This document shows, piece by piece, positions 46,205 through 54,402 of a DNA stretch of 55,520 bases. Origin of the DNA: Luteibaculum oceani (GTDB taxonomy: Bacteria > Bacteroidota > Bacteroidia > Flavobacteriales_D > Luteibaculaceae); NCBI RefSeq assembly GCF_007995015.1, contig NZ_VORB01000012.1, positions 1-55,520 of the forward strand. Reading direction: 5' to 3'. The notes beneath the pieces are model-generated. The model was not told the origin of the DNA, ran no database searches, and worked only from the letters and a program-made list of their open reading frames with translations. The first letter of the stretch is position 1. Each line of letters opens with the position of its first letter. A program made the translations under genes and the position numbers.

Positions 46205-46237
46205 GAATATTTTAGGAGGTTAAAATCAAAACTGTCA

Positions 46238-46353
46238 ACTTATCTGTTTTCCGGTATTTCCGGAAACTGGAATTGGCACCTTCGGGTACGCAGCTGCGTA
46301 CTTCGGGTTGCCAAGGCTTCATAGGGCCAGTCCCTCTGCCTTTCTTGATAAGT
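46238..46353 (-). ncRNA. SAM-I (S-box) riboswitch controlling metH
   Basis: The minus strand reads ACTTATC (46353-46347) paired with GATAAGT (46244-46238) as stem P1. Inside are the conserved S-box core GAGGGACTGGCCCTATGAAG (plus-strand span 46317-46336), the GGCAACC pseudoknot strand, and the GGTGCCAATTCC segment with a following hairpin. These are diagnostic for the SAM-I class. Binding S-adenosylmethionine stabilises P1, frees the downstream terminator and turns off methionine synthase. Aptamer, terminator and antiterminator are all intact. Confidence 0.95.
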
Positions 46354-46372
46354 ACTAATTAAAGAACTGGGA

Positions 46373-51337: not shown

Positions 51338-51839
51338 ATGACTAGCACCCTATTTTCTACTGAACGATGTATTGTTAAGCCGTTACAGAAAGAGGATTTC
51401 CCTGAGATTCTTGAAATGTATCAAGAGCTTGATTCCAACAAATATGTTCCACCGCTTAAGGACAAAACACCCGAGGAACACTTGGCTTTCCTTGAACTAA
51501 AAATAGGAAACAACGAAAAGGAATTGGGCTTTTGGACTGCAAGAAAAAAGAGAAAGGCCGTTTGGTAGGCACAGTCAACTTAAATTTTTTCGAGCCCTTA
51601 AATGTTTACCATGTGGGTTGCCATTTAAGTAGAGGTATTTGGAATAAGGGCTTTGCAACCGAACTTTTAAATGGAGTAATTCTTTGGGGGGGCAATGTAA
51701 AGGGCTGCAGGAAATACACGCTCTTGTGGTAGATGGAAATAATGCTTCGCGAAAGCTAATGACCAAATTACATTTCGATTTTATCCGAACGGATACGGTG
51801 CAAAAACGAAAATTACACGTGTACAAAAAAGATATTTAA
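51338..51839 (+). pseudogene. GNAT acetyltransferase, two frameshifts
   Basis: An acetyltransferase of about 166 aa can be rebuilt only by crossing three frames. Frame 1 (51338-51568) gives the N-terminus ERCIVKPLQKEDFPEILEMY. Frame 2 (about 51541-51700) gives GRLVGTVNLNFFEP, then HLSRGIWNKGFATELL, the acetyl-CoA region. Frame 3 (about 51700-51839) gives LQEIHALVVDGNNASRKLM, typical of the GNAT motif B end. Each change equals one missing base, near the A-rich 51541-51551 and near 51698-51704. Both lie next to homopolymers, so either a decaying gene or sequencing/assembly error. Confidence 0.8.
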
Positions 51840-51944: not shown

Positions 51945-52139
51945 TTAGTCAATTAGTTTCACATTGATTGCGTTTAACCCTTTTCTACCTTCTTGAGTTT
52001 CAAAAGAAACACGGTCATCCTCACGAATTTCATCAATAAGACCATTTGCATGTACAAAAATATCCTTACCTGAATTGTTTGGTGTGATAAATCCGTACCC
52101 TTTTTCCTCGTTAAAGAATTTTACTACTCCTTCGTTCAT
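51945..52139 (-). CDS. cspA: Cold shock protein (CspA family)
   Basis: A 64-aa single cold-shock domain that binds single-stranded RNA/DNA and melts mRNA structure. The RNP1 motif KGYGFIT and RNP2 motif DIFVHAN are intact. Its start is 38 bases after the stop of the DEAD-box helicase gene on the same strand, so both are likely made from one mRNA under the same cold or growth control, and both act on RNA structure. Confidence 0.96.
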   Translation of the reverse strand: MNEGVVKFFNEEKGYGFITPNNSGKDIFVHANGLIDEIREDDRVSFETQEGRKGLNAINVKLID

Positions 52140-52177: not shown

Positions 52178-53338
52178 TTAATTTATAAAGGTATAAGCCA
52201 TACCTGTTTTACCAGCCCTTCCGGTTCTACCTATACGGTGGATATAACTATCCATGGTAAGAGGTAATTGGTAATTAATTACGTGGGTTACCCCATCAAC
52301 ATCTATCCCTCTAGCCGCAACATCTGTAGCTACTAAAACACGCGTTTTACCACTTTTAAATTTGCGGATCGCATTACTACGATAATTCTGCGATTTGTTT
52401 CCGTGGATAACATCCGACATTACTCCAACCTTTTGAAGTTTCACCTGAATTTTATCGACGCTTCGTTTGGTTTCAGCAAACAGAATCACCTTTTCGAAAG
52501 AGGGTTGTAAAAGCAAATTCTTCAGTAGATCGAACTTATTTTCATCCGGTTTCACCTTAATGATATTTTGCTCTACATTATCGCTACTCTCGGTTCCAGA
52601 ACTTACTTTAATTCGAATAGGATCACTAAGCAATTGTTGGATATGCTTTTCCTGATCGCTCTTCAAGGTTGCCGAAAAAAGCATGGTTTGCATCCTCGAT
52701 TTCATGCAGCTCACAATTGACTTCACATCTGGTAAAAACCCCATGTCTAACATGCGATCGAACTCATCTAAAACCAAAATTTCCGTTCCTTTTAATCGAA
52801 GCGCGCCTTGATTTACAAGGTCTAACAACCTTCCAGGGGTTCCTACAATTAAATCTTGTTTCCTGCGGGCGATACCTAAATCTTTACCCACATTGGTTCC
52901 ACCAATAAAACAAGCCGAGGAAAGCCCCATTCCACGGCTTAGTGCTTTAAACTCAATTAATACCTGCTCGGCTAATTCTCTTGTTGGAACTACAACCAAC
53001 GCAGTTTTCCCTTTGTTGCAAAGCATTTGTTCCACAATGGGTATCAAAAAGGCACCGGTTTTTCCGGTTCCCGTAGCTGCAATCCCCACCATATTTCTAC
53101 CAGAAATAAGGCTTGCAATAGCTTTATCTTGTATTTCGGTTGGATGGGTATATCCCTTGGCACTTAAGTTTTTCAGAATTTCTGGTCTTAATGCCATGTC
53201 GGCATAACATTGACTCGGCGTATATGGCTTAACGGTACTTTTTACGGCCGACTTTACCAGCATTTTTGGATTAATGCTAGATACCATTCGCTTTTTAGAT
53301 CGCCTGCGATCTATATTTTTTTTAACTGGTCTTTTCAT
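52178..53338 (-). CDS. DEAD-box RNA helicase with DEFD motif II
   Basis: ATP-dependent RNA helicase of the RhlE type, 386 aa from ATG 53338 (the frame opens at TTG 53362). All core motifs are visible: Q motif PTEIQDKAI, motif I ATGTGKTG, Ia PTRELAEQ, Ib TPGRLLD, motif III SATL, V ATDVAARGID and VI HRIGRTGRAGK. Motif II reads Asp191-Glu-Phe-Asp194 (DEFD) instead of DEAD, keeping both acidic residues. A basic N-terminal extension of about 45 residues may bind RNA. First gene of an operon with cspA, and preceded by a predicted long structured leader. Probably helps unwind RNA in the cold or in ribosome assembly. Confidence 0.95.
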   Translation of the reverse strand: MKRPVKKNIDRRRSKKRMVSSINPKMLVKSAVKSTVKPYTPSQCYADMALRPEILKNLSAKGYTHPTEIQDKAIASLISGRNMVGIAATGTGKTGAFLIPIVEQMLCNKGKTALVVVPTRELAEQVLIEFKALSRGMGLSSACFIGGTNVGKDLGIARRKQDLIVGTPGRLLDLVNQGALRLKGTEILVLDEFDRMLDMGFLPDVKSIVSCMKSRMQTMLFSATLKSDQEKHIQQLLSDPIRIKVSSGTESSDNVEQNIIKVKPDENKFDLLKNLLLQPSFEKVILFAETKRSVDKIQVKLQKVGVMSDVIHGNKSQNYRSNAIRKFKSGKTRVLVATDVAARGIDVDGVTHVINYQLPLTMDSYIHRIGRTGRAGKTGMAYTFIN

Positions 53339-53672
53339 GTTTTTTTGAGTTGCTTGTCGCAACGGAAGCTTGCCTTTGTCTGTAAACCGGACAGTAATAC
53401 TGCTAGCTTTGATGAATTTCGAGGAAAAAGAATGTCGTTAACAAACAACGCTTTCACCTGAAATCACAAAAGATTTCTACTTGAGACTTAAAAGAAAAGG
53501 AAGATTAATACGACAATAATTAGTTAAACAAAACACGTCTAAGTGATTCTTAGACTTTTTAAAAGCATGTTTTGTTACAGGAGAGGCAAAAGTTTAAAGC
53601 TTGCTAGGGCTTACTTGAGTATTCCAATTTGCAAAAGAAACGCACTTTTCTAGAAACACATCTTATGCATTT
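53339..53672 (-). promoter_or_regulatory. Predicted long 5-prime leader of helicase-cspA operon
   Basis: From the predicted start site near 53672 to the ATG at 53338 there are about 335 bases with no convincing reading frame. The leader contains a two-level hairpin: outer arms TGTTTTGTT/AACAAAACA (53576-53568, 53535-53527) and inner arms GTCTAAG/CTTAGAC (53555-53549, 53543-53537). A second hairpin, GTTGC-GACAA-GCAAC (near 53361-53347), stands directly in front of the start codon. Long structured leaders are typical of cold-shock mRNAs. Confidence 0.5.
53527..53576. repeat. Nested inverted repeat upstream of helicase
   Basis: Outer perfect 9-bp arms AACAAAACA (53527-53535) and TGTTTTGTT (53568-53576) enclose perfect 7-bp arms GTCTAAG (53537-53543) and CTTAGAC (53549-53555), which on the plus strand are followed by five T. 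Could be an RNA element of the helicase leader or a plus-strand terminator. Confidence 0.65.
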
Positions 53673-53678
53673 CTGGGA

Positions 53679-53713
53679 CAAAGGTACTGCAAAATATATT
53701 CACAATTACAAAA
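53679..53713 (-). promoter_or_regulatory. Putative promoter of helicase-cspA operon
   Basis: On the minus strand TTTTG (53713-53709), 22-base spacer, TACCTTTG (53686-53679), an exact TAnnTTTG. An ATTG at 53706-53703 is an alternative -33 box. No equally good box lies closer to the ATG. Confidence 0.5.
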
Positions 53714-53874
53714 CCTTTAAAATAAAATCACGCTGACTGTCTAAAAAAGATCAAAAATAGGCACAGAATTTGACGATAAATTAGACCTTATTTGGAAAAT
53801 GAAAAGCAAAAAGTAAAACCTAAAACCCCCTGTTGTAAAGTAAATCCCAACAGCCCCATAAAACGCAAAAAACC
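53714..53874. other. Intergenic remainder before helicase promoter
   Basis: AT-rich, no gene seen. A weak hairpin CTGTTG (53830-53835) / CAACAG (53848-53853) could be part of the terminator of the NTF2-like gene, which ends at 53875 on the minus strand. Confidence 0.35.
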
Positions 53875-54402
53875 TTATAAATCCCGACCTTTGCGCAACT
53901 CTTTCGGAACCTTGCAGCCCTCGTCTTTTCTGGTATCACTTAATTGGAAAACCTTCCAGCTACCATCCACCTGATGCATTACAAAAACATCCATTCCACA
54001 ATGGTGAAATTTCCTTCCTAAATAAAATGCATAATCGCAGCTCATCACTGCTAATTTATCGTCAATACGAATATCAACGTTCCAAATTACCTCGTCCCAA
54101 ACTTGAGATTTCTCCTTACCAACCGAGCCAATAAATTCCTTGAAATTATTCTTTTGAAACCTATCTTTTCCTGTGGCATCCTTATATACAACTGCCAAAT
54201 CGGGGTTGGCGACAAAAGCACTCTTAAAAAGAACGGTATCGGAATTTCGAATTCCCTCTAACAAATTCAGTGCGGTTTGCATTACAGCTTCCTGACTGGA
54301 ATTAAGCTTGGAATCAACAATGTAATTGGACTGTGCGTGGGATTGATTATTCCACATTAACATGCTGATCCCTACTATGAAAATTCGTTTTGGCAAATTC
54401 AT
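53875..54402 (-). CDS. Secreted NTF2-like (SnoaL-type) protein
   Basis: The 175 aa protein has a signal peptide (about 1-23, SHAQ). The mature part fits the NTF2-like cone fold: an N-terminal helix pair SSQEAVMQTALNLLEGIRNSDTVLFKSAFVAN, followed by strands such as VWNVDIRIDDKLAVMSCDYAFYLG (shown here with small gaps) and DVFVMHQVDGSWKVFQLSD. Many Bacteroidota members are annotated as nuclear transport factor 2 family proteins without known ligand. Isolated gene, divergent from the ion channel. Confidence 0.75.
   Translation of the reverse strand: MNLPKRIFIVGISMLMWNNQSHAQSNYIVDSKLNSSQEAVMQTALNLLEGIRNSDTVLFKSAFVANPDLAVVYKDATGKDRFQKNNFKEFIGSVGKEKSQVWDEVIWNVDIRIDDKLAVMSCDYAFYLGRKFHHCGMDVFVMHQVDGSWKVFQLSDTRKDEGCKVPKELRKGRDL

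Follow-up and report, generated by a model that had tools for sequence, protein, structure and literature searches.

A predicted long 5′ leader of a cold-shock helicase–csp operon in Luteibaculum oceani and its counterparts in Bacteroidota

The helicase–csp operon and its upstream region

We analyzed a stretch of 55,520 nucleotides from Luteibaculum oceani (contig NZ_VORB01000012.1 of assembly GCF_007995015.1; hereafter, the window), in which a DEAD-box RNA helicase gene is followed, after a gap of 38 nt, by the gene of a cold-shock-domain protein (csp). The domain content, strand and start codons of both genes (Table 1) bear out the pair that a first-pass annotation had read from the sequence. 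In NCBIfam the helicase obtains no name above the cut-offs, with CshA as the best score below them. The upstream gene ends at 53875, and 536 nt of noncoding sequence precede the helicase. Elsewhere in the window, at 51338–51839 on the plus strand, a gene that we take to be acetyltransferase-like is apparently split over three frames (51338–51568, 51532–51732 and 51684–51839), and is either broken or the product of an assembly or sequencing slip.

Table 1. Genes and predicted features of the helicase–csp locus in the window
Feature	Position	Strand	Basis or remark
DEAD-box RNA helicase, 386 aa	52178–53338, ATG at 53338	minus	Pfam DEAD and Helicase_C
Cold-shock-domain protein (csp), 64 aa	51945–52139, ATG at 52139	minus	CSD domain
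Predicted promoter −7 box TACCTTTG, exact TAnnTTTG	53679–53686	minus	sequence and comparative position in orthologues
Predicted 5′ leader RNA, ~335 nt	53339–53675	minus	promoter box position; whole-leader z −1.78
5′-terminal strand AGAAATGCAT (53674–53665) with two mutually exclusive 10-pair partners (53661–53652 and 53645–53636)	53636–53674	minus	post hoc
Nested inverted repeat / extended hairpin, −14.0 kcal/mol	53527–53576	minus	folding
15-nt pyrimidine run TCTTCCTTTTCTTTT, possible single-stranded protein site	53490–53504	minus	shuffle p 0.075
40-codon GTG frame, stop overlapping the helicase start (ATGA)	53335–53457	minus	weak coding score
Pre-start hairpin GTTGC-GACAA-GCAAC, −5.2 kcal/mol	53349–53363	minus	ends 10 nt before AUG

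The predicted promoter box lies 348 nt before the helicase ATG, with a TTG upstream of it at 53705–53703 (spacer 16) or 53711–53709 (spacer 22). The transcription start is estimated at about 4 nt behind this box, near 53675. The annotation had described the box as the only exact one, about 335 bases before the ATG; the box and its distance hold, whereas its uniqueness does not, since a second exact TAnnTTTG box (TATTTTTG) occurs at −421, without a TTG at the usual spacing.

Within the predicted leader, the nested inverted repeat and the small hairpin before the start codon are both present where the annotation had placed them, the former with outer arms at 53527–53535/53568–53576 and inner arms at 53532–53543/53549–53560. 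Among 60 shuffled leaders, 6 contain a 50-mer that matches the nested repeat in stability, the pre-start hairpin is equalled in 52 of 1000 shuffles, and the folding z of the whole leader is −1.29 over 366 nt, some coding sequence included (the tabulated value is for 340 nt). Taken singly and from one sequence, the window structures are only marginally better than chance. The p value of the pyrimidine run refers to the window alone, and such runs are uneven over 30 leaders of orthologous genes; in one of these relatives (L010) a pyrimidine run of 16 nt is placed almost equally far from the ATG, and the window run also resembles the CCUUUCUUUUAA stretch of L074 and L079, similarly distant from the AUG.

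For the window, the start region is predicted to have an accessibility of 0.54, 0.55 and 0.59 at 10, 20 and 37 °C, respectively. No strong temperature effect on this region is seen in the prediction, and its near flatness speaks against a thermometer of the simple kind at the start codon. In relatives where the predicted accessibility moves more, as in L042 (from 0.31 to 0.56 between 10 and 37 °C), it is lower in the cold.

No Rfam match, including the cspA family RF01766, was obtained for the leader region (53300–53760) up to an E-value of 5, and the 22 relatives' loci scanned were likewise unmatched at gathering scores, so that a known Rfam family was set aside as an explanation. At gathering scores the whole window matches SAM and tRNA families only, the former being a SAM riboswitch (RF00162) at 46237–46354 on the minus strand (90.8 bits; gathering score 44.4).

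Long leaders and pre-start hairpins in orthologous genes

Orthologues of the helicase were collected through overlapping searches of 40, 399 and 240 genomes and one scan of 84,980 species genomes (34 loci). The resulting set of 57 comprises the distinct loci scoring at least 345 bits in tblastn plus three that were added later (L087–L089); partial genes (L062, L064) and paralogues (e.g. L012–L031, L065) fall below this cut-off and were left out. Two main arrangements are found, the helicase either lying close behind a desaturase or other open frame, or standing alone with its own promoter.

At least 130 nt of noncoding sequence lie upstream of the helicase in 33 of the 57 distinct orthologues. 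An exact TAnnTTTG box occurs in 31 of these 33, compared to 51 of 143 other genes (Fisher p 3e-10), and in 29 of the 31, compared to 28 of the 51, over 100 nt separate the ATG from the nearest box (Fisher p 1e-4); these p values, and those given below for the hairpin, are too small because orthologues share descent. The window, with an orthologous helicase and an exact box more than 130 nt upstream of it, shows this long-leader arrangement. For reference, reported 5′ untranslated regions have a median of 32 nt and a mean of 52 nt in B. thetaiotaomicron, with 13.5% above 100 nt (PMC7366714), and a mean of 33 nt in F. johnsoniae (PMC6847099).

For the folding, pyrimidine, two-partner and hairpin tests we used 30 hand-picked leaders in which the box is present and no gene intervenes. 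This set includes L073, which is absent from the 33, and omits L083 as well as four members of the 33 (L006, L036, L037 and L084). Against shuffled sequences, the 30 leaders have a mean folding z of −1.91, with 12 of them below −2.

The pre-start hairpin was scored as present when it reached −4 kcal/mol or better and ended 8–15 nt before the AUG, a range within which the window hairpin falls. So defined, it occurs in 18 of the 30 leader-type orthologues, compared to 2 of the 27 remaining orthologues and 10 of 299 other genes; with the spacing left free, the counts are 21 of 30, 11 of 27 and 62 of 299. An independent measure, the folding z of the last 50 nt, averages −1.72 over the 57 orthologues and −0.28 over 163 other genes. 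For the box and hairpin counts, though not for this last measure, we shifted the start codons of L052 and L079 to an ATG further upstream. A single 11-member clade supplies 11 of the 18 hairpins; outside it, the hairpin occurs in 7 of 19 leaders (p 1e-5), or 6 of 18 when the window is also removed (p 8e-5). The tree that delimits this clade was used only for that purpose and to identify the window's neighbours; its context labels are rough, with L011, L069 and L082 called as leaders through boxes inside the upstream gene and desaturase contexts under-called. Sixteen different hairpin sequences are found at one spacing, which indicates that the hairpin itself is kept, and the pre-start hairpin is the most general feature of these leaders.

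A desaturase lies directly ahead of the cold-shock helicase in L033, L034, L066, L067 and L076/L122. Pfam FA_desaturase was found in both upstream desaturases tested (L033 and L076) and also in L123, where the desaturase follows the second of the leader elements described below and no helicase was seen in the fetched stretch. The adjacency of desaturase and helicase suggests a cold-adaptation unit joining membrane and RNA functions. The desaturase frame of L033 (1846–1981) and, as judged by eye, that of L123 (upstream of 1935) continue open ahead of the first ATG into sequence that looks coding, making a non-ATG start of the desaturase possible.

Conserved elements at the 5′ ends of related leaders

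The annotation had proposed a search for covarying stems in orthologous leaders. Leaders of relatives contain two conserved elements, neither of which is matched by the window leader. The first is an 80-nt element that starts right behind the promoter in 15 leaders and was seen before the helicase only. Its carriers include Bacteroidales, Cyclobacteriaceae, a Chitinophagales metagenome-assembled genome (MAG) and a MAG labelled Flavobacteriales, among others, and its consensus reads UUCUUAGC[CA]GAC ... AAGGCAG ... CCCUCUCUUU ... GAUUC[AG]GCUAAG (in short, CUUAGC...GCUAAG). In helix 1, 5 of 9 pairs are invariant. Three pairs of the element are changed on both sides, a count reached by 3 of 500 shuffles; as two of them (columns 15–80 and 31–62) are unpaired in 13 of the 15 sequences, covariation contributes little, and it is sequence conservation that carries the element. 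The ten of the 15 members that were scanned have no match in Rfam 15.

With laxer filters, the covariance model of this element (R1) recovers all nine seed genomes strongly (E 9e-14 or better), two further weak places inside seed genomes, and weakly (E 0.17) the non-seed genome of L061, the most divergent member at 23.7 bits. With stricter filters it matches 5 of 295 genomes of one order, comprising two seeds and three new instances, all of them before the helicase. The same filters yield matches in none of 395 genomes drawn evenly from the phylum, a set without a known positive, and we do not regard the element as widespread.

The second element occurs in family f8 of the window's own order, and also starts behind the promoter, reading CAAG[UC]UAAUUCU ... 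AGAAUU..C.UG. Its initial model (R2) was built from five helicase leaders, and matched in addition a second csp gene of genome G099 (L115, 53.6 bits) and, weakly, the desaturase–helicase operon of L076 (31.5 bits). Both were added to a revised model (R3), which gave ten matches in 240 genomes; among these, one further independent copy precedes a desaturase in genome G300 (L123, 56.3 bits). Two other matches (L124, 34.6 bits; L125, 31.4 bits) were rejected as false, since their open frames point to unrelated places. The independent finds are thus L115 for R2 and L123 alone for R3. Given that R3 is noisy at low score, L076 is assigned mainly by where it lies, between a promoter and a desaturase, and the position of L115 only 4.5 kb from the helicase leader of the same genome makes a local duplication possible. 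In all, the element occupies eight places, preceding the helicase in five, csp in one (L115/L126) and the desaturase in two (L076/L122 and L123), a distribution over csp and desaturase genes that fits cold-shock control.

In an alignment of seven sequences (A4), all 70 cells of the closing stem of this second element are paired, two of its pairs differ on both sides, and its covariation score is reached by 1 of 500 shuffles; this count leans in favour of the stem, as the structure was drawn from the same sequences and two of the rows were found by the model. The five of its eight places that were scanned have no match in Rfam 15. Neither R2 nor R3 matches L010, which shares the genus code of L074 and L079, or the desaturase leaders of L033 and L066, and the helicase leader of L009 gives a noise-level match (16.3 bits, E 4.1). 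As read by eye, the C.UG of the element forms a start–stop (AUG UAA or GUG UAA) in L077, L074 and L079 and frames of other lengths elsewhere, so that a leader peptide is seemingly not kept.

The window leader shares with carriers of the first element the orthologous gene, the start at a TAnnTTTG promoter and the AUG-proximal hairpin, which most of those carriers have, and with carriers of the second the order, the long leader and the gene set; both covariance models nevertheless exclude it. With filters off, R1 scores 9.3 bits on the plus and 7.1 bits on the minus strand, and the R2 and R3 alignments, which skip most of the model, reach 11.2 and 9.1 bits, values that are at noise, and no stem of the window leader could be aligned with any other leader compared. 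The window's family is represented in the comparison set by its own genome alone.

An alternative pairing noticed in the second element led us to look for one in the window, where the 5′-terminal strand AGAAATGCAT can form either of two helices (Table 1). Among 3000 shuffles, 3 reach such a two-partner pairing at 9 or more pairs, and a broader search gives p=0.02. Folding of the whole leader gives the local partner an advantage of 6 kcal/mol at 5 °C and of 1.1 kcal/mol at 37 °C. Tried as a property of the class, the two-partner pairing reaches p<0.05 in 3 of 35 leaders, with a median p of 0.63, and given this lack of enrichment we make no claim of a switch for the class.

Interpretation and alternatives

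On balance, we favour with modest confidence the interpretation that the stretch upstream of the helicase is a long 5′ untranslated leader of a cold-shock helicase–csp operon, acting in cis as a post-transcriptional control element. It builds on what the computations establish at the locus, namely its position, promoter box and gene content, and on the long leaders, pre-start hairpins and conserved elements that recur in relatives. The annotation had gone from the structured leader to a thermosensing or autoregulatory RNA. The long leaders, the folding excess, the hairpin and the elements of orthologous genes favour regulation by a structured leader, while the window's own stems, for which no match was found, and its nearest orthologues, which lack a long leader immediately ahead of the helicase, do not. 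We found no such Bacteroidota leader in Rfam 15 or in the titles of open-licence literature, a body that leaves most subscription papers outside, in keeping with the annotation's remark that an element of this kind was not known for the phylum.

As to where transcription starts, how cold regulates the operon, which partners bind and in which direction control acts, we infer the following course. Transcription would most likely start near 53675, and the leader would fold from its 5′ end, with the hairpin holding the 3′ boundary and keeping the A-rich initiation window before the AUG single-stranded at a fixed spacing. The fold would most likely limit expression at growth temperature. Cold would then alter the fold, its stability or its protein occupancy, with cold-shock protein on the pyrimidine tract or the helicase itself as candidate partners, and the operon would be switched on and later damped by its own products.

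A passive long leader would account for the same arrangement if the promoter were distant by chance and the repeats were chance products or leftovers, for instance of the loss of a desaturase from an ancestral desaturase–helicase–csp operon. The nearest orthologues of the window fit such a history. These genes (Sinomicrobium L032 at 65%, M2408 L033, Allomuricauda L034, L066 and L068) lie directly behind a desaturase or other open frame, with no long leader immediately ahead of the helicase; L033 and L066 instead carry the box in front of the desaturase frame, at 315 and 297 nt from its first ATG. The annotation had named a lack of stem conservation in close relatives as counting against its reading, and the comparison goes half that way, since the nearest orthologues carry no long leader immediately ahead of the helicase. 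The near-chance window structures and the failure of both element models to match also suit a passive leader. Long leaders, folding excess and the AUG-proximal hairpin nonetheless recur across the phylum, and the window has its hairpin at the same spacing, so that we regard a passive leader as rather unlikely. A repeat or mobile element was discarded as a source of the sequence, the leader being single-copy in its genome at the cut-off used. A word-size-7 BLAST of the leader against eight loci, three from its own genome (the desaturase and csp-like loci L116, L110 and L111) and five from relatives (L003, L032, L033, L066, L068), gave chance-level pieces (best E 0.13). In the genome of the window, a box precedes the ATG of the desaturase by 74 nt, and the 500 nt ahead of the second csp gene (L110) contain no exact box.

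A nearer, non-consensus promoter would leave the operon with a short leader, and the box at 53686–53679 serving nothing or an unannotated small RNA. In 41 kb of noncoding upstream sequence (from ~435 kb of genome, the window included), we counted 16 instances of the combined TTG and TAnnTTTG pattern in the right orientation and 7 in the wrong one, and with wrong-orientation boxes at almost half the rate of right-orientation ones, a single exact box is good evidence but not proof. Against a nearer promoter, the stretch between the box and the ATG holds no other candidate that matches at 5 or more of 6 positions and has a suitably spaced TTG, and the box is present in nearly all stand-alone orthologues, far upstream in most of them; we consider this alternative improbable.

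We give as little credence to a transcription attenuator, in which the nested repeat would end transcription early, or to leader-peptide control, in which the GTG frame would be coupled to the helicase start: a terminator-like call exists on both strands at 53537–53555, but the hairpin is followed by a poor U-run (GTGTTTTGTT) that the outer arm consumes, and the GTG frame, for all its ATGA overlap and the 155-codon open frame that reaches the start in the sister gene L032, has no comparable kept counterpart noticed by eye in those leaders of relatives that were inspected. The codon score of this frame (0.007) is among the highest in the leader, with 8 of 422 windows as high, and lies below the 5th percentile of real-gene stretches (0.04); the frame is thus probably non-coding. 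The annotation's statement that the region contains no reading frame is therefore inexact as to the presence of a frame and probably right as to coding.

Structured leaders that control cold-shock genes are understood in detail for a few Proteobacteria and have also been studied in cyanobacteria. The cspA family and csdA/deaD of E. coli have long cold-shock leaders, with a leader motif common to several cold-shock genes. These are the same two kinds of gene as in the window, and the sharing of a motif parallels that of the second element; the leaders described here differ in having no Rfam match (RF01766 for cspA) in the window or the 22 loci scanned, Bacteroidota promoters and initiation without a Shine–Dalgarno sequence. 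By analogy, the closest worked case is rhlE of Caulobacter crescentus, where a 186-nt 5′ untranslated region is reported as needed for full expression and RhlE is suggested by the authors to influence its own mRNA level (PMC5472812). Going by its published description, rhlE resembles the window in having a long, predicted-structured 5′ untranslated region on a cold-shock DEAD-box helicase gene, and differs in belonging to another phylum. The crhR gene of Synechocystis likewise encodes a temperature-controlled, self-regulated cold-shock RNA helicase (PMC3485376); unlike here, the part of that account drawn on describes transcript and protein half-life rather than a conserved leader element. Within Bacteroidota, Rfam-assigned RNA thermometers are mentioned in the map of B. 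thetaiotaomicron (PMC7366714), and mRNAs of the phylum are reported to be without Shine–Dalgarno sequences (PMC6847099). A hairpin kept at a fixed spacing from the AUG bears on how ribosomes are placed on such mRNAs.

Beyond the favoured interpretation of the window leader as a cis-acting control element, a broader proposal is possible and we make it tentatively: Bacteroidota may have a cold-shock leader regulon of their own, in which elements at the 5′ ends of helicase, csp and desaturase mRNAs would sense cold or RNA-melting proteins, with the window leader as a fast-evolving member whose 5′ strand would switch between two helices. The elements found before these genes offer targets for testing RNA-based sensing of cold in the phylum.

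The surroundings of several leaders showed further features. In three loci of Bacteroidales type (L047, L053 and L055), the opposite strand upstream of the leader resembles, as judged by eye, the start of a second DEAD-box helicase, and in another of this type (L063) a long divergent frame lies upstream of the leader. Downstream of the helicase in L046, where other loci have csp, we find a sequence (RGFGFVEM) that we take to be RRM-like.
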